From Bacteroidales bacterium (GTDB lineage: Bacteria > Bacteroidota > Bacteroidia > Bacteroidales > F082), in assembly GCA_016281295.1 (NCBI GenBank), contig JAEEII010000257.1:1-5691 (forward strand): 5,691 nucleotides of DNA. The letters are read 5' to 3'. This document shows, piece by piece, positions 224-5,394 of this stretch (the stretch's first letter is position 1; each line of letters starts with the position of its first letter). Both the position numbers and the translations under genes were made by a program. The notes beneath the pieces are model-generated. The model did no database searches and was not told where the DNA came from. It saw nothing but the letters and a program-made list of their open reading frames with translations.

Positions 224-251
224 GACTTTACCGCTTTAATGCGGTAAAGTC
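224..251 (+). terminator. Perfect 11-bp hairpin, probable terminator
   Basis: GACTTTACCGC (224-234) and GCGGTAAAGTC (241-251) are perfect inverted repeats around TTTAAT. The copy at 3140-3167 keeps the stem with a G-C to A-T compensatory change, so pairing appears to be selected. No U-run follows; GCCCGGGC lies 3 nt beyond. Confidence 0.65.
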
Positions 252-254
252 TGC

Positions 255-262
255 GCCCGGGC
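255..262 (+). promoter_or_regulatory. GCCCGGGC boundary palindrome, site 1
   Basis: An 8-bp perfect palindrome, 3 nt past the hairpin and 37 nt before the next -35 box. It is one of six related sites (five full GCCCGGGC octamers plus one GCCCGGG), all intergenic. Role unknown. Confidence 0.55.
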
Positions 263-299
263 AGAAAAATTGTTAAAAAAATAACTTTTAAAAAACCTA

Positions 300-328
300 T
301 TGACGAAAGGCGAATAGTAGTGTATAAT
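300..328 (+). promoter_or_regulatory. Sigma-70/sigma-A promoter for the 375-782 gene
   Basis: TTGACG (300-305), a 17-nt spacer and TATAAT (323-328). It is preceded by A/T-rich sequence that could act as an UP element. The predicted transcription start is near 335, leaving a leader of about 40 nt that contains GCAAGAGAGA. Confidence 0.85.
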
Positions 329-374
329 TATTCATGTAAGCAAGAGAGACAAAAAAAGAAAGGAAATGAAAAAA

Positions 375-782
375 ATGGGTTATTTTTATGCTGGCGGCAA
401 AACTAATCAGCAGATTCATGCCAGGGGGAAGATTGGGGAAAGCAATCAGAAGTATCTTTCTTCTCGTGTTGGCAAGATTCGTAATGACGAGGGGAATTTT
501 GTGGTTTTTGAATATCTGGAAATTCCTAACAGCACTAGGGCCATCACTCGTTCGATTGAGGGTGATGTGCGCCTGATGCTGGAAAGGGCTGGATACAAAA
601 ATGTTCAGAATGACCATTTTGTGTGGGAAACTACGAAAGAGCGCAAGATGGAAGATTATCACAATTTTGCCCATCTCGCTATTCAGTTCGCTATGGCTTA
701 TTGTGATTTTAGGGGCATCCCTTACATTCATCATGTTGTTGCTAATGGTAGCGTTAGGAAAAATGTCAAGAGGCGTAAATAA
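375..782 (+). CDS. Putative GIY-YIG/T5orf172-like nuclease-fold protein
   Basis: I place the start at ATG 375 (135 aa) rather than the in-frame ATG at 366. The SD AAAGGAA ends directly at 366, and the same SD with an A-rich spacer sits 11-12 nt before ATG 848 in the next gene. The protein begins GYFYAGG (residues 2-8), followed by KIGES (19-23), R31 in SSRVGKI, and E62 in RSIEGDVRLML. That order (GxY-like strand, K-IG-x-S, Arg, Glu in a helix) resembles the T5orf172/MUG113 branch of the GIY-YIG superfamily, which is common in phages. If correct, it would bind or cut nucleic acid. The C-terminus from about residue 85 is an unrecognised helical extension ending in a basic tail (VRKNVKRRK). The match is by eye and the active-site tyrosine pair is incomplete, so activity is uncertain. 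It is a single-gene unit with its own promoter; the next promoter starts 5 nt after its stop. Confidence 0.8.
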   Translation: MGYFYAGGKTNQQIHARGKIGESNQKYLSSRVGKIRNDEGNFVVFEYLEIPNSTRAITRSIEGDVRLMLERAGYKNVQNDHFVWETTKERKMEDYHNFAHLAIQFAMAYCDFRGIPYIHHVVANGSVRKNVKRRK

Positions 783-786
783 CCTC

Positions 787-815
787 TTGACAAATACCCC
801 TTTTTATGCTATACT
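787..815 (+). promoter_or_regulatory. Extended -10 promoter for the 848-1507 exonuclease
   Basis: TTGACA (787-792), a 17-nt spacer and TATACT (810-815), with TG at 807-808 forming TGC-TATACT. The upstream gene ends at 782, so no terminator separates the two genes and read-through is likely. Confidence 0.88.
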
Positions 816-847
816 ATAAGAGAACTAAGGGAAAGGAAATAAAAAAA

Positions 848-1507
848 ATGATTGACCTGCACACTCCTATTATTATGATTGACACCGAGACCACCAACGA
901 CATTGACTGCCCCTTTGTGTATGATGTGGGCTATCAGATTTTCACCCTTGCGGATGGTGTTCTCTGTGAAAAGTCCTTTGTCAATGCTGACATTTTTCTT
1001 GATAGAGAGCTGATGACCTCTGCTTACTTTGCTGAGAAAATCCCCCAGTATTGGGATGATATTAAGGCTGGCAAGCGCACTCTCCGCAAGTGGTACAACA
1101 TCAAGCGCGAGATTGCCGAGGACTGCAAGCGGTTCGGTGTTGTGTTCGCCTGCGCTCATAATGCCGCTTTTGATAATCGTGCGCTGAACACGACCCAGCG
1201 TTATCAGACCACCAGCAAGAGCCGCTATTTTCTACCCTATGGCATTGAGTGGCTGGACACCCTCAAAATGGCTCGTCAAGTGCTGAAAAACGATGATGAC
1301 TATGGCGCTTTCTGCTATGCGAATGAGTATCTGACGGCGAGGGGTTGCCGCCGCTATACTGCGGAGATTATTTACCGCTGGCTGTCTGGTTCTGCTGACT
1401 TTGAGGAAAGTCACACTGGTCTTGAAGATGTCAAGATTGAGCGTCAGATTTTTGAGTTCTGCGTGAGTGCTGACCCCGAAATCAACGGCAAGCTTTGGAA
1501 CGATTAA
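848..1507 (+). CDS. DEDDh-family 3'-5' exonuclease (DnaQ-like), copy 1
   Basis: A 219-aa protein of the DEDDh exonuclease superfamily, which removes 3'-terminal nucleotides from DNA or RNA by two-metal catalysis. The motifs are complete: Exo I as IDTET (D12, E14), Exo II as HNAAFD (N105 to D109), a DTLKMAR segment (137-143), and Exo III as HTGLED (H189, D194). It has no polymerase or accessory domain, so it is a stand-alone enzyme; sequence alone does not say whether it acts on DNA or RNA. The ATG at 848 is chosen because AAAGGAA stands about 11 nt upstream; an in-frame ATG at 806 lies inside the promoter, before the transcription start. A strong stem-loop begins at its stop codon. The protein at 4631-5302 is a paralogue, about 53% identical by hand alignment, with all catalytic residues at the same positions. 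A role in host-DNA degradation, phage DNA repair or RNA turnover is possible but not shown. Confidence 0.93.
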   Translation: MIDLHTPIIMIDTETTNDIDCPFVYDVGYQIFTLADGVLCEKSFVNADIFLDRELMTSAYFAEKIPQYWDDIKAGKRTLRKWYNIKREIAEDCKRFGVVFACAHNAAFDNRALNTTQRYQTTSKSRYFLPYGIEWLDTLKMARQVLKNDDDYGAFCYANEYLTARGCRRYTAEIIYRWLSGSADFEESHTGLEDVKIERQIFEFCVSADPEINGKLWND

Positions 1508-1534
1508 AGCCCTGTTAAAAAATTAACAGGGCTT
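1507..1534 (+). terminator. 12-bp stem-loop at the exonuclease stop codon
   Basis: AAGCCCTGTTAA (1507-1518) pairs perfectly with TTAACAGGGCTT (1523-1534) around AAAA. The stem's first base is the last base of the TAA stop. It is symmetrical, so it could end transcription on either strand; the downstream T-run is only two bases and belongs to the stem. Confidence 0.8.
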
Positions 1535-1535
1535 C

Positions 1536-1542
1536 GCCCGGG
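1536..1542 (+). promoter_or_regulatory. GCCCGGG boundary motif, site 2 (7 of 8 bases)
   Basis: GCCCGGG followed by A instead of C, 1 nt beyond the stem-loop and 10 nt before a -35 box. It is the only imperfect member of the set. Confidence 0.5.
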
Positions 1543-1552
1543 AATTGCAGAC

Positions 1553-1581
1553 TTGATTTTTTTAAAAAAAAATGATATAAT
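1553..1581 (+). promoter_or_regulatory. Extended -10 promoter with no gene behind it
   Basis: TTGATT (1553-1558), a 17-nt spacer that is nearly all A/T, and TATAAT (1576-1581) with TG at 1573-1574. Transcription would start near 1588 and run through GCCCGGGCGCCCGGC (1619-1633). No reading frame follows except a 7-codon ATG-initiated one without an SD. It may drive a small RNA or simply read into the array downstream. Confidence 0.65.
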
Positions 1582-1618
1582 TATTATAGAAAAATGAAAA
1601 AAGAAAAAAATTTGTAAT

Positions 1619-1633
1619 GCCCGGGCGCCCGGC
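1619..1633 (+). promoter_or_regulatory. GCCCGGGC plus GCCCGGC, doubled boundary motif, site 3
   Basis: The octamer GCCCGGGC (1619-1626) is followed at once by GCCCGGC. Together they contain the 12-bp palindrome CCGGGCGCCCGG (1621-1632). In RNA this could form a hairpin; in DNA it offers two overlapping sites. Confidence 0.5.
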
Positions 1634-1637
1634 AAAA

Positions 1638-1677
1638 TGCACAAATAAACTCTATTTTCGCCTTTGATTTTTGTGCA
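1638..1677 (+). repeat. Inverted repeat TGCACAAA / TTTGTGCA
   Basis: TGCACAAA (1638-1645) and TTTGTGCA (1670-1677) are perfect 8-bp inverted repeats separated by 24 nt. The right arm ends 10 nt before the -35 box at 1688. It could be a divided operator or the 3' hairpin of a short transcript from the 1553 promoter. Confidence 0.45.
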
Positions 1678-1687
1678 ATTTACCATC

Positions 1688-1716
1688 TTGAAATCTTCTA
1701 AAATTTCTGCTATACT
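1688..1716 (+). promoter_or_regulatory. Array promoter A (extended -10)
   Basis: TTGAAA (1688-1693), a 17-nt spacer and TATACT (1711-1716) with TG at 1708-1709. First of four promoters spaced 137, 143 and 153 bp apart, each followed by about 100 nt of purine-rich leader. Confidence 0.8.
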
Positions 1717-1722
1717 GTTAAG

Positions 1723-1822
1723 TGTCAGGGGGAAAGAGAAGCGGGCATCCCAAGCCGTCCCTGCTCCGTCCTTAAAGCGCATAAGGTTTCCAAAATAAAA
1801 AATAAAAAAAGTTTGGAAAACC
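1723..1822 (+). ncRNA. Leader/short RNA A
   Basis: This is the predicted transcript from promoter A to the next -35. It starts GTGTCAGGGGGAAAGAG, an SD-like purine run with no ATG placed to use it. It contains a 5-bp hairpin CCTTA/TAAGG (1770-1786). It ends in a hairpin GGTTTCCAAA/TTTGGAAAACC (1785-1794 and 1812-1822, one bulge) with an A-rich loop. I see no gene here; a small RNA or a decayed gene leader are both possible. Confidence 0.4.
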
Positions 1823-1824
1823 CC

Positions 1825-1853
1825 TTGACAACAGCCCTAATTTGTGGTATAAT
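1825..1853 (+). promoter_or_regulatory. Array promoter B (consensus, extended -10)
   Basis: TTGACA (1825-1830), a 17-nt spacer and TATAAT (1848-1853) with TGG just before the -10. It is a full match to consensus. Confidence 0.9.
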
Positions 1854-1859
1854 AAGAGT

Positions 1860-1966
1860 GTCAAGAGGGAGAGGTACAACCCCTTCCGATGGTCTGGCTG
1901 AAAAAATCCAGAGCGTTAGGCAAACAGGATAAAAAAAATCTCTTTAAAAAAAGTACGGGATACCCT
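1860..1966 (+). ncRNA. Leader/short RNA B
   Basis: The RNA starts with GTCAAGAGGGAGAGG. GGGAGAGG (1867-1874) can pair with CCCCTTCC (1880-1887) around TACAA, with one mismatch, which would hide the SD-like run. A second hairpin is TCTGG/CCAGA (1893-1897 and 1908-1912). An ATG at 1889 opens 53 codons, but the frame runs through the next promoter and its spacing from the SD is poor, so I do not call a gene. Confidence 0.45.
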
Positions 1967-1967
1967 C

Positions 1968-1996
1968 TTGACAAGCCCACAAATTTATGGTATAAT
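1968..1996 (+). promoter_or_regulatory. Array promoter C (consensus, extended -10)
   Basis: TTGACA (1968-1973), a 17-nt spacer and TATAAT (1991-1996) with TGG before the -10. The bases around it (CCTCTTGACA, TATGGTATAAT) are nearly those of promoters B and D. Confidence 0.9.
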
Positions 1997-2002
1997 GAAT
2001 AC

Positions 2003-2111
2003 AGTCAAGAGGGAGAAGGCCCCAAGCGACGTAAGACCTATTTAGGCTGACCGCAAAAAGGGCGATAAAAAGAAGTGGAGCCGCCCCCCAACAAAAAAAT
2101 AAAAAAGTTGG
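2003..2111 (+). ncRNA. Leader/short RNA C
   Basis: The RNA starts with AGTCAAGAGGGAGAAGG, almost the same as leader B, and has no usable start codon after it. It ends in CCAAC/GTTGG (2088-2092 and 2107-2111) around a 14-nt A-rich loop. The end of leader A has the same layout with a compensated base pair (CCAAA/TTTGG). I see no gene. Confidence 0.42.
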
Positions 2112-2120
2112 AAAAACCTC

Positions 2121-2149
2121 TTGACAAAACCCCAAGCCTATGGTATAAT
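2121..2149 (+). promoter_or_regulatory. Array promoter D (consensus), drives the 2251-2598 gene
   Basis: TTGACA (2121-2126), a 17-nt spacer and TATAAT (2144-2149) with TGG before the -10. It is the promoter nearest to the wHTH gene and, since none is visible in 2599-3021, probably also serves the RNA block and tRNA. Confidence 0.92.
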
Positions 2150-2155
2150 AAGTAT

Positions 2156-2250
2156 GTAAGTGAGAGAGAGTTCTCCACTTCACATAAGCCTTGCCGCTAC
2201 TAAAAGGCATAAGAATCTGGTAGCAAAAATTTTAGAAAGAGGTAGATACT
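2156..2250 (+). promoter_or_regulatory. Structured 5' leader of the wHTH gene: hairpin plus possible pseudoknot
   Basis: The first hairpin is AAGTG-GAGA / TCTC-CACTT (2158-2162, 2164-2167, 2172-2180) with one bulged A and a GAGT loop. Next, GCCTT (2188-2192) can pair with AAGGC (2204-2208), and GCTAC (2196-2200) with GTAGC (2220-2224). The order a-b-a'-b' is that of an H-type pseudoknot. The SD (AAAGAGG, about 2236-2242) lies 12 nt beyond. This could be a translational control element or autoregulatory site; no known riboswitch class is recognised. Confidence 0.5.
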
Positions 2251-2598
2251 ATGACTACTCCTAAGACCACTCAGCGCACTGCCATCCTGTACGCCATTGA
2301 CAACCTGCCCGATGCTCCTGCGGAGATTATCGAGAAGTGGAACGCCATGCTGACCGCCATCGACAAGAAGAACTCTGCCGAGCGGAAGCCCACCGCCAAG
2401 CAGACTGAGAATGTCGGCATCAAGGCCGCCATTGTCGCTGGCATGGAGAGCGGTGAGCAGTACAGCGCCGCTGACATCGCCAAGGCCCACGAGGGTCTGA
2501 CCGTTCAGCGTGTGTCCGCTCTGCTGTCTCAGCTTGTGGCTGAGGGTGCCATCGTCAAGACGGTGGAGAAGCGCAAGAGCTTTTACAGCCTTACGTAA
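2251..2598 (+). CDS. Small winged-helix DNA-binding protein
   Basis: A 115-aa protein with SD AAAGAGG 8 nt before ATG 2251. Residues 1-45 form a helical region (AILYAIDNLPDAPAEIIEKWNAML...). A basic linker RKPTAKQTENVGIKAAI follows at 45-61. Residues 71-96 read as a helix-turn-helix (YSAADIAKAHEGLTVQRVSAL...) and 97-114 as the beta-wing (AIVKTVEKRKSFYSL). Many gut-phage genomes carry small proteins of this shape; the family's role is not settled, and regulator or DNA-architecture protein are both reasonable. The C-terminal third is nearly identical to the fragment at 1-111, including at nucleotide level. It is preceded by four tandem promoter-leaders and followed by a hairpin, the structured RNA block and tRNA-Lys, probably on one transcript. 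Confidence 0.92.
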   Translation: MTTPKTTQRTAILYAIDNLPDAPAEIIEKWNAMLTAIDKKNSAERKPTAKQTENVGIKAAIVAGMESGEQYSAADIAKAHEGLTVQRVSALLSQLVAEGAIVKTVEKRKSFYSLT

Positions 2599-2618
2599 TC
2601 CCTAACTCCTGCGGCTCT

Positions 2619-2641
2619 GAGGGGTGAGCCTATCGCCCCTC
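2619..2641 (+). terminator. Terminator-like hairpin after the wHTH gene
   Basis: GAGGGG (2619-2624) pairs with CCCCTC (2636-2641) over an 11-nt loop. No U-tract follows; since no promoter is seen before the tRNA, read-through is probably substantial. It may instead be a processing site. Confidence 0.45.
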
Positions 2642-2647
2642 TCCAAA

Positions 2648-2727
2648 TGGGATTGTATTGTAAGCGGATAACATGCCTATGGGCGTTCTCCCTGTGGCGT
2701 TGTGGGGTTCAAGTCCCACCAATCCCA
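2648..2727 (+). ncRNA. tRNA-like fold with defects (possible degenerate or unusual tRNA)
   Basis: TGGGATTG (2648-2655) pairs perfectly with CAATCCCA (2720-2727) as an acceptor stem. GTGGG/CCCAC (2702-2706 and 2715-2719) makes a T-stem around GTTCAAGT, which contains the TTCAA core but has 8 rather than 7 bases. A D-arm of three pairs (TGT/ACA, 2659-2673) has a loop containing GG. The anticodon arm is wrong: ATGGG/CCTGT (2679-2695) needs wobbles, and its loop CGTTCTC has G where U33 should be. No CCA is encoded. It could be a decayed tRNA, a tRNA mimic, or the closing domain of a larger RNA. I cannot assign an anticodon. Confidence 0.45.
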
Positions 2728-3021
2728 AATTTTGCCATCTGCTGACACGACAAGCGGTGAGGGGGGTCGTGACCCCAAAAAGCGAGCAACGGCTTACAGA
2801 GAGCGCTGGACTCCGCGCCCATTGAGGCGGGAAGTGCTGGTAAAATGCCTCTAACACCAGACGCCAAAACCTAAGGGCATAGGGAATGGCAACAACGGGG
2901 CACGGATTTTTGAAATGGGTAAAGGCGTTGAGCGTGTATGTCTACCCCATTATAAAAACGCTACAAAGGGCCTGGGGCAAAAGGGCCTACACAGGGGTAA
3001 GAGCCTAGTCCCCTGAAATCT
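2728..3021 (+). ncRNA. Candidate structured RNA between the tRNA-like fold and tRNA-Lys
   Basis: About 290 nt with no convincing reading frame but many possible pairings. TTGCCAT (2732-2738) pairs with ATGGCAA (2886-2892) as a long-range closing stem. GGGGT/ACCCC (2763-2767, 2772-2776) makes a hairpin. CTGGT/ACCAG (2837-2841, 2856-2860) interlocks with ATGCC/GGCAT (2845-2849, 2876-2880) as a pseudoknot. AATGGGTA/TACCCCATT (2914-2921, 2943-2951, one bulge) interlocks with AGCGT/ACGCT (2931-2935, 2958-2962) as another. CAGGGG/CCCCTG (2992-2997, 3010-3015) closes a last hairpin 6 nt before tRNA-Lys. Large phage RNAs such as GOLLD and ROOL are known to sit beside tRNA genes, but I cannot match this to either. 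All pairs were found by eye. Confidence 0.45.
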
Positions 3022-3097
3022 GCGCGTGTAGCTCAGTAGGTAGAGCACCGCCCTTTTAAGGCGGGTGTCGAGAGTTCGAGCCTCTCCACGCGCACCA
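3022..3097 (+). tRNA. tRNA-Lys (anticodon TTT), CCA encoded
   Basis: It folds fully: acceptor GCGCGTG/CACGCGC, D-arm GCTC/GAGC, anticodon stem CCGCC/GGCGG with loop CTTTTAA (anticodon TTT), and T-arm GAGAG/CTCTC with loop TTCGAGC. It ends in ACCA, so no host CCA addition is needed. It has no promoter of its own and would be cut from the transcript that carries the RNA block. It reads AAA and AAG, which suits the lysine-rich, A-rich genes around it. Confidence 0.97.
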
Positions 3098-3139
3098 ATA
3101 TTCTTCTTTCCTCCTTTCTTTCTTTCTTCTTTCGGCGGA

Positions 3140-3167
3140 GATTTTACCACTTTAACGTGGTAAAGTC
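3140..3167 (+). terminator. Hairpin with compensatory change, probable terminator
   Basis: GATTTTACCAC (3140-3150) pairs with GTGGTAAAGTC (3157-3167) around TTTAAC, with one T-G wobble. Against the copy at 224-251 one pair has changed from G-C to A-T on both sides. It probably ends the wHTH/RNA/tRNA transcript. Confidence 0.65.
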
Positions 3168-3172
3168 TTTGC

Positions 3173-3180
3173 GCCCGGGC
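3173..3180 (+). promoter_or_regulatory. GCCCGGGC boundary palindrome, site 4
   Basis: A perfect octamer, 5 nt after the hairpin and 31 nt before the next -35 box. Confidence 0.55.
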
Positions 3181-3211
3181 GGAAAAAGATTGTTAAAATT
3201 TTCACACCCCC

Positions 3212-3240
3212 TTGACACCAAGAGAGAAAGAGAGTATAAT
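3212..3240 (+). promoter_or_regulatory. Consensus promoter for the 3271-4312 operon
   Basis: TTGACA (3212-3217), a 17-nt purine-rich spacer and TATAAT (3235-3240). It is one of two promoters here without a TGn extension. The leader before the first ATG is only about 24 nt. Confidence 0.92.
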
Positions 3241-3270
3241 GGATGTAGAAAATGAGAAGGAGATAAAAAA

Positions 3271-3459
3271 ATGACTTATAATCCTAACTGCCCTCATTGC
3301 GACACCGAACTTGATTTTGATGACCACTATGACATGTATGATGACGGAGACGCCATCATCTGCCGTGCTATCGGTCATTGCCCCAAGTGCGGAAAGCACT
3401 TTAAGTGGGAAGATATTTACACCTTTTGTGGTTTCCAAGATTTGGAGGAGGACGAGTAA
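3271..3459 (+). CDS. Zinc-ribbon miniprotein, copy 1
   Basis: A 62-aa acidic protein with SD AAGGAG (3257-3262) 8 nt before ATG. CPHC (C7, C10) and CPKC (C37, C40) form a four-cysteine zinc ribbon, joined by a very acidic stretch (DFDDHYDMYDDGD). The second knuckle sits in GHCPKCGKHFKWE, repeated almost exactly in the protein at 4127-4312, so both belong to one family. Zinc ribbons of this size in phages usually bind nucleic acid or a host protein; with its low pI, protein binding or DNA mimicry are both possible. It is the first gene of the operon; its TAA shares one base with the next ATG (TAATG at 3457-3461), implying translational coupling. The specific function is unknown. Confidence 0.92.
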   Translation: MTYNPNCPHCDTELDFDDHYDMYDDGDAIICRAIGHCPKCGKHFKWEDIYTFCGFQDLEEDE

Positions 3460-3719
3460 TGGAATGGAAAATTTTGGAATACATTAGGGACTACCCCTAT
3501 TGCCGTCAGCGTTACATTGCCAAGGCTTGCCACACTTGGTTTTTGAATGAGGATTTTCTCAACGCTTTACAGAGACTTTACAAAGGTGGCTTTATTGACT
3601 GCCGATACCATCACGATCCCGCCCAAATGGAATTTTATAATGAATGGTACTTGACAGACAAGGGAAAGTGTGCTATAATGAATGTAGAAAACAAGGAAGG
3701 AGATTTTCTGTATGGCTAA
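3459..3719 (+). CDS. Small winged-helix-like protein
   Basis: I start at ATG 3459 (86 aa). It overlaps the previous stop and has GGAGGAGG (3444-3451) just upstream; an in-frame ATG at 3405 lies inside the zinc-ribbon gene with no good SD. The N-terminal half is helical (ILEYIRDYPYCRQRYIAKA and on to DFLNALQRLYKGGFID), followed by the wing-like end YNEWYLTDKGKCAI. The YLTxKG pattern is typical of winged-helix regulators such as the MarR or PadR type. It is probably DNA-binding, although the family is not recognised. The 3' end carries the -35 and -10 boxes (3651-3679) and SD of the next gene, and the last 8 nt overlap that gene's start. The final residues (ENKEGDFLYG) may therefore be set by those control signals rather than by protein function. 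Confidence 0.88.
   Translation: MEWKILEYIRDYPYCRQRYIAKACHTWFLNEDFLNALQRLYKGGFIDCRYHHDPAQMEFYNEWYLTDKGKCAIMNVENKEGDFLYG
3651..3679 (+). promoter_or_regulatory. Extended -10 promoter inside the 3459-3719 coding sequence
   Basis: TTGACA (3651-3656), a 17-nt spacer and TATAAT (3674-3679) with TGC before the -10. It encodes LTDKGKCAIM in the upstream gene's frame. It gives the last two operon genes a separate supply of transcript. Confidence 0.88.
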
Positions 3720-4113
3720 GCCTGTTTTGAATGAACGCACGATTGCGGACTACATGAAGCGCAATAAGTGCAACCGCGAGGAAGCGATTGACCTCATCAA
3801 GTACGATATTGCCGTTGAGGATGGCGAGGACACCGAGTATGACCTCACCGCTGAGCAGGAAGCGAATGTGCGTGAGATGACCCGCAAGGTGGAACACGCC
3901 AAGCAGGACGGCAAGGTGAAGCGTGAGCGCAAGCCCAACGAACTGAAAGAGGCTATCGTCGCGGAGATTGCCGAGTTTCTGCGTGAGGACGCGCAGGGGC
4001 AGATGTATGAGGACGTTGAAATCACCAACAAGTCCCGCATGATTGCCTTCACGGTGGGCGAGAAGCACTTTGAACTCACCCTCATTGAGAAACGTCCCCC
4101 CAAGTCCAAGTAA
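3712..4113 (+). CDS. Conserved phage-type hypothetical protein
   Basis: A 133-aa protein with SD AAGGAG (3697-3702) 9 nt before ATG 3712, which overlaps the previous gene by 8 nt. The N-terminus (NERTIADYMKRNKCNREEAIDLIKYD) is helical, followed by an acidic segment and a charged linker rich in Lys and Arg (HAKQDGKVKRERKPNELK). The C-terminal part reads as a helix (EAIVAEIAEFLRE) and then three strands (YEDVEITNKSRMIAFTVGEKHFELTLIEKR). Similar two-part proteins are familiar from Clostridia phages without an assigned function, as I recall; this is not a database result. It has no enzymatic motif, signal peptide or membrane segment. The stop overlaps the SD of the zinc-ribbon gene that follows. 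A nucleic-acid or protein adaptor is the best guess, weakly held. Confidence 0.92.
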   Translation: MAKPVLNERTIADYMKRNKCNREEAIDLIKYDIAVEDGEDTEYDLTAEQEANVREMTRKVEHAKQDGKVKRERKPNELKEAIVAEIAEFLREDAQGQMYEDVEITNKSRMIAFTVGEKHFELTLIEKRPPKSK

Positions 4114-4126
4114 GGGGGCGCCCTCA

Positions 4127-4312
4127 ATGACCGATTACGAATGCCCTATTTGTCACAATGGCGACATTGAAGAAGATGATTGCTTTGACACCGACCATGG
4201 CACAAATGAAATCATTGAATACTATGTTGGTCATTGCATGACCTGTGGAAAACATTTCCAGTGGGAACGGCACTATAAGTTTGACCATCAAACACCCTAC
4301 CAAGAGGACTAA
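4127..4312 (+). CDS. Zinc-ribbon miniprotein, copy 2
   Basis: I start at ATG 4127 (61 aa, MTDYECPICH...). AAGGGGG (4112-4118) lies 8 nt upstream and overlaps the previous stop; the longer in-frame ATG at 4043 is inside the preceding gene. CPIC (C6, C9) and CMTC (C37, C40) are the metal ligands, with C37/C40 at the same positions as in the protein at 3271-3459. GHCMTCGKHFQWE matches that protein's GHCPKCGKHFKWE, and the acidic linker is again present though different in sequence (DIEEDDCFDTDHG). It is the last gene of the operon, and its stop codon lies inside the terminator stem. Two members of one family in a four-gene operon suggest they form a pair or act on related targets; this is inference. 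Confidence 0.9.
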   Translation: MTDYECPICHNGDIEEDDCFDTDHGTNEIIEYYVGHCMTCGKHFQWERHYKFDHQTPYQED

Positions 4313-4329
4313 TTAAAGTTAGTCCTCTT
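4302..4329 (+). terminator. 11-bp stem-loop overlapping the operon's stop codon
   Basis: AAGAGGACTAA (4302-4312) pairs perfectly with TTAGTCCTCTT (4319-4329) around TTAAAG. The TAA stop is the tip of the left arm, so the last codons are also terminator sequence. Only one T follows the stem. Confidence 0.82.
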
Positions 4330-4335
4330 TAACTT

Positions 4336-4343
4336 GCCCGGGC
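4336..4343 (+). promoter_or_regulatory. GCCCGGGC boundary palindrome, site 5
   Basis: A perfect octamer, 6 nt beyond the stem-loop and 46 nt before the next -35 box. Confidence 0.55.
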
Positions 4344-4389
4344 ACCCTAAGGTTACAAAAGAAAGACAAAGAAAGACATAATTGTTCCG

Positions 4390-4418
4390 TTGACATAACA
4401 CCACTTATCTGTTATAAT
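4390..4418 (+). promoter_or_regulatory. Consensus extended -10 promoter for the membrane peptide gene
   Basis: TTGACA (4390-4395), a 17-nt spacer and TATAAT (4413-4418) with TG at 4410-4411. The start codon is 23 nt after the -10 box. Confidence 0.92.
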
Positions 4419-4441
4419 AAAAGCAGAAAGGGGATAGAGTT

Positions 4442-4573
4442 ATGGAAACTAATCTGGCTTCTCTGTTCATTATTACTGTTGCGGGGCTTGCGTTTACTAT
4501 CTGGATTTTGGTTCAGTTGTATAAACATGACTACCCGAAGAAGAAAGAAAAAGATTTTGATTATTGGTCTTGA
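4442..4573 (+). CDS. 43-aa single-pass membrane peptide
   Basis: ATG 4442 lies 8 nt after AAAGGGG (4427-4433) and behind its own consensus promoter, which makes this short frame credible. Residues 5-27 (LASLFIITVAGLAFTIWILVQLY) form one hydrophobic segment long enough to cross a membrane. A charged tail follows (KHDYPKKKEKDFDYWS), which would lie in the cytoplasm by the positive-inside rule. There is no signal-peptidase site or lipobox. Phages often encode such peptides as inhibitors of host membrane proteins, superinfection-exclusion factors, or holin-like and toxin-like peptides, and the sequence does not choose between these. Its TGA stop (4571-4573) lies inside the -35 box of the following promoter, so the two units are packed without any spacer. 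Confidence 0.8.
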   Translation: METNLASLFIITVAGLAFTIWILVQLYKHDYPKKKEKDFDYWS

Positions 4574-4598
4574 CAACTCCCACATCTTGTGGTATAAT
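4570..4598 (+). promoter_or_regulatory. Consensus extended -10 promoter for the second exonuclease
   Basis: TTGACA (4570-4575), a 17-nt spacer and TATAAT (4593-4598) with TGG before the -10. The -35 box contains the upstream TGA stop. The leader has CAAGAGAAAGAGG, like the array leaders at 1860 and 2003. Confidence 0.92.
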
Positions 4599-4630
4599 GA
4601 TAACTGTAATCAAGAGAAAGAGGTAAAAAA

Positions 4631-5302
4631 ATGATTGATGTTAATGAGCGCATTATGATGATTGACACAGAAACCACTAATGACATTGAAGACCCCATCT
4701 GCTACGATGTGGGCTACCGTGTCTTTGACCTTGCGGGGAATGTGTATGAGGAAGCGAGCATGGTGAACGCCGATATTTTTCTCGACAAGGAATTTATGGC
4801 GAGTGCCTACTACGCCGAGAAAGTCCCCGACTACTGGCGGGACATTTGGGAGAAGCGCAGGGAGTTGCTGTCGTGGCGAGTTATCAAGGCGAGAATTTGG
4901 GAGGCTATTCAGCGTAACAATGTGACCATCGTTTCCGCCCACAATGCCCGCTTTGACTATCGCTCCCTCCATCTGACCCAGCGATACATCACTACTTCCC
5001 GCTGGCGGTGGGTGATGCCTTGGGGCGTTGAGTGGTGGGACACTCTGCGGATGTGCCGTGAAGTCTTTAAGGCTGATGAAAATTATCGTCCTTGGTGTGA
5101 GGAGCGAGGCTACATCACCGCAAATAATCAGCCGAAGATGACCGCCGAAGTGGTGTATAGATACATCACGGGGGACGAGGATTTCACCGAGAGCCACACA
5201 GGGCTTGAAGATGTGAAAATCGAAATGGAAATTTTCAAATATTGCCTTGACAAAATCCCCGACATTGACGGCAGGGCTTTCCCGCCGAAGGACAGGACCT
5301 AA
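4631..5302 (+). CDS. DEDDh-family 3'-5' exonuclease (DnaQ-like), copy 2
   Basis: A 223-aa protein with SD AAAGAGG (4617-4623) 7 nt before ATG 4631. All DEDDh residues are present and at the same positions as in the protein at 848-1507: D12 and E14 in IDTETT, D109 in HNARFD, and H189 and D194 in HTGLED. By hand alignment about 115 of 217 residues are identical (near 53%), with conserved blocks such as VNADIFLD, LTQRY/TTQRY and ESHTGLEDVKIE. Differences cluster at 75-100 and 145-175, which could alter substrate choice. It carries more tryptophans in the middle (RWRWVMPWGVEWWDTLR) than copy 1. It is a single-gene unit with its own promoter and a stem-loop at the stop codon. Both copies look intact, so neither is an obvious pseudogene. 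DNA or RNA as substrate is undecided. Confidence 0.94.
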   Translation: MIDVNERIMMIDTETTNDIEDPICYDVGYRVFDLAGNVYEEASMVNADIFLDKEFMASAYYAEKVPDYWRDIWEKRRELLSWRVIKARIWEAIQRNNVTIVSAHNARFDYRSLHLTQRYITTSRWRWVMPWGVEWWDTLRMCREVFKADENYRPWCEERGYITANNQPKMTAEVVYRYITGDEDFTESHTGLEDVKIEMEIFKYCLDKIPDIDGRAFPPKDRT

Positions 5303-5319
5303 TACCCCCAAGGGGTATT
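5301..5319 (+). terminator. 8-bp stem-loop at the second exonuclease stop codon
   Basis: AATACCCC (5301-5308) pairs with GGGGTATT (5312-5319) around CAA. Two bases of the TAA stop form the start of the stem. No U-tract follows. Confidence 0.75.
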
Positions 5320-5327
5320 GGGCTCCC

Positions 5328-5335
5328 GCCCGGGC
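5328..5335 (+). promoter_or_regulatory. GCCCGGGC boundary palindrome, site 6
   Basis: A perfect octamer, 8 nt after the stem-loop and 30 nt before the -35 box. Confidence 0.55.
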
Positions 5336-5365: not shown

Positions 5366-5394
5366 TTGACATTCTGGCTTGTATGTGCTATACT
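5366..5394 (+). promoter_or_regulatory. Extended -10 promoter for the 5424 operon
   Basis: TTGACA (5366-5371), a 17-nt spacer and TATACT (5389-5394) with TGC before the -10. Confidence 0.9.

Follow-up and report, generated by a model that had tools for sequence, protein, structure and literature searches.

A repeated CCGG-core palindrome in the window

The DNA analysed here, contig JAEEII010000257.1 of the Bacteroidales bacterium assembly GCA_016281295.1 (5,691 nucleotides, its full length being referred to as the window), is 5.7 kb of phage-like sequence. Among its products are two exonuclease-like proteins, paralogous to each other (848-1507 and 4631-5302; PHROGs 20187 and 192), a Ren-like winged-helix protein (2251-2598) and a tRNA-Lys (3022-3097); for its small proteins, no Pfam family scored above cut-off. 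Seven sigma-A-type promoters in the window score 12/12. Between the genes recurs an eight-base palindrome with a CCGG core, GCCCGGGC, which in the window and in related phage sequences typically lies after the end of one transcription unit and ahead of the promoter of the next, and which may be the core of a dispersed operator. The initial annotation had reported five exact copies and one near-copy, GCCCGGGA, and all six were recovered at exactly these positions (Table 1). Five exact copies compare with about 0.08 expected, and among 2,000 dinucleotide shuffles of the window 1832 contained no copy, 161 one and 7 two, with never more. With one mismatch allowed, there are 6 copies against 1.99 expected, a number reached or exceeded in 2 of 200 shuffles.

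All six copies fall outside the window's 10 called genes, in agreement with what had been judged by eye, and small overlapping open frames cover some of them. The hairpins that had been described ahead of five of the six copies were also found, ending 1-6 nt before the word; the last of them is not significant, 17 of 200 shuffles folding equally well, and the copy at 1619 has none. A scan of the window for intrinsic terminators reported none of its five hairpins. As annotated, the promoters at 787, 3651 and 4570 lack the word. The claim that the palindrome marks every operon boundary was overstated: the word accompanies 6 of the 12 promoters in Table 1, and in relatives, too, it does not hold literally, the word being present in 174 of 266 promoter-bearing gaps.

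Table 1. Positions of the palindrome copies, hairpins and promoters in the window
Feature	Position	Strand	Remarks
GCCCGGGC, site 1 (CCGG-core palindrome)	255..262		3 nt past hairpin 224-251; 37 nt before -35 of promoter 300
GCCCGGGA, one-mismatch copy	1536..1543		1 nt past hairpin 1507-1534
GCCCGGGC, site 3	1619..1626		no hairpin ahead (z 0.18)
GCCCGGGC, site 4	3173..3180		5 nt past hairpin; 31 nt before -35
GCCCGGGC, site 5	4336..4343		6 nt past hairpin; 46 nt before -35
GCCCGGGC, site 6	5328..5335		1 nt past hairpin; 30 nt before -35
Hairpin ahead of site 1, lacking a U-tract	224..251	+	fold of 215-275, z -4.99
Gene-end hairpin without U-tract	1507..1534	+	z -3.30
Hairpin without U-tract, 3' of tRNA-Lys gene	3140..3167	+	z -3.35; 86% like hairpin 224
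Gene-end hairpin over stop codon of 4127-4312	4302..4329	+	z -2.64
Gene-end hairpin over stop codon of 4631-5302	5295..5326	+	z -1.45, not significant
Sigma-A-like promoter downstream of site 1	300..328	+	11/12
Promoter-like site downstream of 1536	1553..1581	+	10/12
Promoter-like site downstream of 1619	1688..1716	+	10/12
Consensus promoter downstream of site 4	3212..3240	+	12/12
Consensus promoter downstream of site 5	4390..4418	+	12/12
Promoter downstream of site 6	5366..5394	+	11/12
Promoter without site	787..815	+	4 nt past stop codon
Promoter without site	3651..3679	+	within gene
Promoter without site	4570..4598	+	over stop codon
Three more consensus promoters without site (1825, 1968, 2121)	1825..2149	+	no called gene there

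Placement, symmetry and neighbourhood of the site

Relatives of the window exonuclease were gathered by alignment A1, with which 126 IMG/VR stretches were confirmed; the best 80 of the 126 were taken and 79 relative loci kept, many on contigs longer than 100 kb. No exonuclease relatives in bacterial genomes were confirmed with A1, and a scan with the single window protein confirmed none. Polarity, flank, promoter-distance, one-mismatch, gap and gene-overlap counts refer to loci with at least seven copies plus the window. L003 and L017, presumed from matching hit tables to be near-duplicates of L002 and L018, were omitted from the flank, promoter-distance, period, mismatch, gap, gene-overlap and TAG counts and retained in the polarity, conservation, GTTAG-dyad/Phass-1 and promoter-upstream palindrome counts.

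The word is abundant well beyond the window. Relatives that had not been selected for it contain 25 copies in 18.9 kb (L076), 18 in 14.2 kb and 20 in 20.6 kb, where base composition predicts 0.14, 0.03 and 0.12, respectively. In 26 records that we picked by hand from those behind the 79 loci, the word is present in 21, with at least 7 copies in 14, and absent from 5; two records contain the reversed word CGGGCCCG, in 2 and 12 copies. A pattern scan of IMG/VR that required GCCCGGGC at a distance of 15-45 nt ahead of a perfect TTGACA-N17-TATAAT returned at least 120 stretches, against 18 for the reversed word, and 120 viral loci fetched (and hence chosen) by this site-promoter pattern hold 625 copies of GCCCGGGC against 10 of CGGGCCCG. 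A host signal was considered and set aside: the corresponding scan of bacterial genomes, whose counts are lower bounds, gave mostly one site per contig, which we took as chance. In the metagenome-assembled genome (MAG) G029, one phage-like contig accounts for 29 of the 30 sites. The contig JAGCPW010000095.1 (L273, L290, L298), which is 180 kb long and was binned in a Eubacterium MAG, carries 29 copies of GCCCGGGC in its first 23 kb and looks phage-like; the remainder of the 1.7 Mb bin has one.

Copies avoid genes and are confined to one region of each genome. Of the 295 copies in 23 site-rich sequences (the window and 22 relatives), 282 fall outside called genes, although coding sequence makes up 51% of the DNA counted; L011 has 7 of the 13 copies that lie inside genes. 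In seven whole records (109-240 kb), nearly all copies lie within one stretch of about 9-50 kb, and in 10-kb bins it is this copy-bearing stretch that is densest in consensus sigma-A promoters. For example, the 19 copies of G016 (120 kb) all lie at 73.5-84.1 kb, the 16 of G008 (109 kb) all at 82.0-90.5 kb, and 26 of the 27 in G026 within the first 20 kb; in G001 (240 kb), the sites span the 110-160 kb bins, which hold 92 of 136 forward promoters. Judging by its host-type promoters and small genes, the copy-bearing region is probably the early region.

Within this region the elements follow the order: the end of a unit, then a hairpin or other dyad, the GC palindrome, an AT-rich stretch, and a promoter. 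In 25 sequences, a hairpin lies 5' of the site in 170 of 320 cases and 3' in 16 (random positions, 113 of 2500), and a promoter lies within 160 nt downstream at 286 of 320 sites, being reversed at 13 (random positions, 763 of 2500). When both strands of the seven records were considered, sites with both sides assigned were concordant in 78 cases and discordant in 2. Presence of the site depends on the distance of the promoter from the preceding stop codon: the word precedes 4 of 17 promoters inside genes and 1 of 38 located less than 25 nt past a stop codon, whereas the figure is 27 of 59 for those 25-49 nt away and 151 of 200 for those 50-149 nt away. Tandem promoter-bearing gaps (60-400 nt only) contain it in 174 of 266 cases, the share being higher where there is a hairpin (133/187) than where there is none (41/79, p=0.003). 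Because the site is nearly absent from promoters close to a stop codon and common at 50-149 nt, and because a hairpin raises its presence, the sites appear to be linked to boundaries and not to promoters as such.

The sequence around the word is symmetric. For the flank and hairpin-distance counts, sites less than 80 nt from the start of a locus or less than 200 nt from its end were dropped, leaving 294. Among these, 1% have A at -1 and 2% have T at +1, while A at -2 and T at +2 are each seen in 6%. Fifty-seven one-mismatch copies before strong promoters show changes at positions 1-8 in the numbers 18, 14, 3, 1, 0, 1, 12 and 8, so that changes at outer positions, as in GCCCGGGA, are the commonest kind; A at position 1 (13 copies) is mirrored by T at position 8 (6). 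In 284 homologous alignments, which like those used for spacing below include reciprocal pairs, the site is 93.5% conserved against 75-82% for its flanks, the exact word is kept in 214, and CCGG survives in at least 34 of the 70 changed copies. The annotation's proposal of a dedicated signal is thus strongly supported by enrichment, placement and conservation, the count in relatives being above chance, the copies not falling freely in genes and the word being kept between relatives.

Lineage variants share the core. A scan for palindromes 10-90 nt before promoters (at least 4 G or C, at least 3 copies) found a repeated palindrome in 33 of 83 sequences, and the top word is CCGG-centred in all 33: GCCCGGGC in 28, GGCCGGCC in 4 and TGCCGGCA in 1, the last being a human faecal phage fragment with 10 copies in 8.5 kb. 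Of the 68 copies in the GGCCGGCC group, only 1 has A at -1, whereas 49 have C at -2 and 47 have G at +2. Symmetric flanks and symmetric mismatch tolerance around CCGG argue for a DNA operator of a dimeric protein over an RNA, modification or packaging signal. Other words were also considered. GCGGCCGC was rejected as a like signal, showing no hairpin-site-promoter order; CCGATCGG and CGGCGCCG, partly in regulatory gaps, failed the promoter-upstream scan and are not claimed; GGCGCGCC partly overlaps or neighbours GCCCGGGC, partly lies in genes, and is the second word in L041 (3 copies).

Two further dyads occur in these loci. Across 80 sequences, LexA-type boxes GAAC-N4-GTTC number 130, against 17 for the reversed arrangement, and 69 fit GAACATAYGTTC; they are found in L015, L020, L030, L031, L047, L049 and others. 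In nine loci, such a box stands 2-15 nt 5' of GCCCGGGC in 33 of 90 cases, and because it adjoins the GC site we place the word, too, among DNA operators. The dyad GTTAG-N4-8-CTAAC (L063, L061, L039, L040, L004 and others) is present in 74 copies, against 6 and 1 for two control arrangements, in loci with at least 7 sites; where a locus has fewer than 3 sites, the corresponding numbers are 78 copies against 5 and 7.

The window itself shows several other repeated features. The winged-helix gene is present twice, at 1-110 (cut by the window start) and at 2251-2598, the two being 86% identical over 44 nt, and downstream of each copy lies a similar hairpin-plus-site pair (224-262; 3140-3180, beyond the tRNA-Lys gene). 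Between 1688 and 2250, a stretch without a called gene, four promoter-like sites are spaced 137-153 bp apart; this series is possibly a small-RNA array, and an Rfam scan of the window at gathering threshold returned the tRNA only. Right after site 1619, a dyad GCACAAA...TTTGTGCA spans 1639-1677, and the same pattern is seen in 40 of 80 sequences (raw count).

Explanations for the site

We propose, giving it an even chance, that GCCCGGGC is the core of a dispersed operator for a putative dimeric protein, acting as a boundary element that insulates and/or silences transcription units. The operator would be about 12 bp long with dyad symmetry, B-Y-GCCCGGGC-R-V, centred on CCGG, and would be recognised by a putative sequence-specific dimeric protein. 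A copy would be placed in most sufficiently long gaps between units of the probable early region of these large phages, downstream of where the upstream unit ends, often in a hairpin, and ahead of the next consensus sigma-A promoter. Once bound, the protein would most likely separate neighbouring units and/or silence them in a stoperator-like manner, blocking or slowing polymerase that reads through from the upstream unit; where the site lies inside a promoter, it would also block initiation. Three sites in L076 sit between -35 and -10, which is a repressor's place. Of the functions that the initial annotation had listed, regulator binding and unit insulation appear the best remaining options. 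A wider version, which we put forward tentatively and consider doubtful, has a boundary system shared by a whole group of large phages: one dimeric protein at CCGG-core palindromes between most adjoining strong early units, together with hairpins (and host LexA in some lineages), would insulate them, leaving each small early gene a unit of its own that could later be silenced, and the word would have drifted while protein and sites coevolved. Drift between GCCCGGGC, GGCCGGCC and TGCCGGCA around a fixed CCGG would imply that the protein coevolved with dozens of sites.

Several results weigh against the insulating operator. Firstly, coverage is incomplete: 92 of the 266 promoter-bearing gaps have no site, and of promoters at least 150 nt from a stop codon only 56 of 231 have one. 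Short gaps may lack the site through mere lack of room. Sites also occur in 6 of 10 convergent and 3 of 12 divergent gaps, numbers that are few and based on doubtful gene calls (the gene caller fails in a GC-rich region of G023). The hairpin polarity of GGCCGGCC is weak, at 10 versus 4 in L063, 6 versus 5 in L069 and 3 versus 1 in L079. Secondly, no binding protein was found among the families compared across loci. The Ren-like winged-helix family does not stand out as a binder, being equally frequent in loci with fewer than 3 sites (43 of 47) and in the others (29 of 33), and in a 95-aa winged-helix family the helix varies, by eye, among users of the same word. Thirdly, if a polymerase that meets a roadblock halts some 15 bp before the bound protein, the RNA end would fall inside an abutting hairpin, and hairpin and roadblock would combine poorly. 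Two other routes to a binder were also abandoned: families common to 7, then 10 records are by eye mostly replication, metabolic and virion proteins, and G027 (38.6 kb, 10 sites), tried as a minimal genome, shares only some families and is probably a fragment.

A tenable alternative, possible without being probable in our judgement, is that the site serves as an operator solely for the promoter downstream, which a protein of phage or host would activate or repress by touching RNA polymerase, with the upstream unit irrelevant. The promoter that follows most sites and the three sites in the promoter spacer of L076 would be expected on this account, and the raw site-promoter spacing has a period of 9.8 bp (n=246, R 0.21; whole records n=105, R 0.40; 0 of 2000 null draws). 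Once paralogous cassettes of equal spacing and similar linker had been merged (283 segments to 203, five loci being swapped for their whole records), however, the period became weak (n=203, p=0.012) and the phases of 19 records were discordant (Rayleigh p=0.30). A harsher blastn-based collapse, which over-merged the 283 segments, gave p=0.47 (n=45). With the milder merging, spacings above 75 nt still gave p=0.001 (n=74, period 11.6). An activator that touches polymerase would be expected to keep its helical phase. Of the alignments with an intact word and a nearby promoter (46, of which 45 reach -10), spacing differs in 30 of 45, unrelated to the helical turn, the pairs not being independent. 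The activator reading is thereby disfavoured, the unconserved spacing favouring an insulating or silencing boundary element. Promoter scores are nearly equal with and without a site (11.84 and 11.93, p=0.045), which gives no clear reason to invoke an activator, and promoters in or abutting genes mostly lack the site, which also speaks against an element serving the promoter alone.

A termination or RNA-level element, in which hairpin plus GC palindrome replaces hairpin plus U-tract or the palindrome acts in RNA, seems unlikely. The annotation had suggested that the word might help termination where U-tracts are missing, and on this the evidence is divided: the best hairpin ends 0-5 nt ahead of the site in 106 of 294 cases, and 71 gene-end hairpins with a site no more than 8 nt on have a mean of 0.82 T in the 8 bases after the stem. 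In the minimum-energy folds at sites 255 and 3173, moreover, pairing extends into part of the palindrome, which pairs with bases ahead of the hairpin. A site that abuts a hairpin leaves no room for a U-tract, yet a further 66 gene-end hairpins, with the site 9-60 nt on, have a mean of 4.06 T in 8. There is no good hairpin within 40 nt at 99 of 294 sites, three sites lie inside promoters, and the symmetry of the flanks and of the tolerated mismatches suits a dimer that binds DNA.

Recombination or cassette shuffling, in which boundary words allow cassette swaps and are possibly cut by a phage nuclease, is quite improbable. Many cassettes within a genome do look paralogous, as the merging of segments above indicates, and a PD-(D/E)XK-like family, A2, is present in 15 of 33 loci with at least 3 sites against 3 of 47 others. 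A2 was nevertheless not found in G016 (19 sites), G011 (17) and G023 and was rejected as an obligate partner, being missed in some site-rich records; eight bases are also short for homologous recombination. The family (e.g. L016:8235-8684), seen in 17 of 26 records, has by eye the invariant E, D and K of a PD-(D/E)XK nuclease-like protein, and three members tested had no PHROG match and no Pfam match above cut-off. Finally, a DNA modification, restriction or packaging site, as had also been suggested, is very improbable: eight-base GC palindromes do resemble rare-cutter sites, but the C5 methylase PF00145 was found in 0 of 29 records and the N4/N6 methylase PF01555 in 2 of 29 (host enzymes and other methylase families were not searched), and the word lies in many copies in intergenic gaps, across 9-50 kb of one region.

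Comparison with known systems

Palindromic operators before several phage genes are known from SP-beta, where they are LexA boxes, and the box consensus of SP-beta and B. subtilis LexA given there, GAAC-N4-GTTC, is the same as that of the boxes beside the GC site (PMC8270828). GCCCGGGC differs in word and in its CCGG core; the LexA box is a separate neighbour and is not found in the window. In T7, the small phage DNA-binding protein Gp5.7 represses host-polymerase promoters on the phage genome (PMC5569994). It may be regarded as a functional analogue of early shut-off. No dispersed palindrome is known for Gp5.7. The promoter-early stem-loop cassettes of T4-type phages place a stem-loop and then an early promoter at gene boundaries, as here; they are not known to carry a GC palindrome between the two.

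Among the code-15 phages of the human gut, phAss-1 (code 15 clade) encodes a distant relative of the window exonuclease (29.9% identity), and Phass-1 has 2 copies of GCCCGGGC in 28.9 kb; a word search of the main text of the phAss-1 paper for 'palindrom', 'promoter' and 'terminator' gave none (PMC10607447). When TAG is read as sense, long open frames are gained in some 20-kb pieces of 6 of 8 records (L085, L099, L120, L400 and others); the largest gains, from 406 to 2816 codons in L085 and from 216 to 2817 in L099, are outside site-bearing pieces, and the gain is small in G008 and G024. Genes ending in TAG number 0 of 10 in the window and 21 of 257 in the site-bearing stretches of relatives.

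The searched portion of the literature contained no description of this element; the word GCCCGGGC brought up one paper, on microscopy, and GGCCGGCC none. Numerous contigs of large phages nevertheless carry the element, including some labelled as gut or rumen samples. If our proposal is correct, it would mark at the sequence level the probable takeover region in a group of phages that has been little studied and several members of which recode TAG, would make that region findable by pattern alone, and would offer a clean test of protein-bound insulators between tandem strong promoters in phages.

The nearest known system is the mycobacteriophage stoperator. In the cluster A mycobacteriophages described in PMC9283540 (L5, TipsytheTRex), more than 20 short sites, bound by one phage protein, lie at promoters and in short intergenic spaces, and are proposed to halt both initiation and elongation; they are asymmetric 13-mers, bound by a monomer, and their reversal abolishes repression. 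The present element is alike in that a single short word is repeated many times, at promoters and in the gaps between genes. Stoperator specificities vary by lineage, and the protein that binds them is the immunity repressor of a temperate phage. The present element is unlike stoperators in being palindromic, with a dyad of about 12 bp, so that only its position is polar, and in its distribution, the sites of L5 lying throughout a temperate phage genome and the present ones in one region. In a search that covered tyrosine integrases (PF00589), 1 of 26 records had a match above cut-off, as did 0 of 8 additional virus records. We do not class the element as a stoperator because it lacks the asymmetric, orientation-dependent site that is a feature of that system; by analogy, it may nevertheless work like one.

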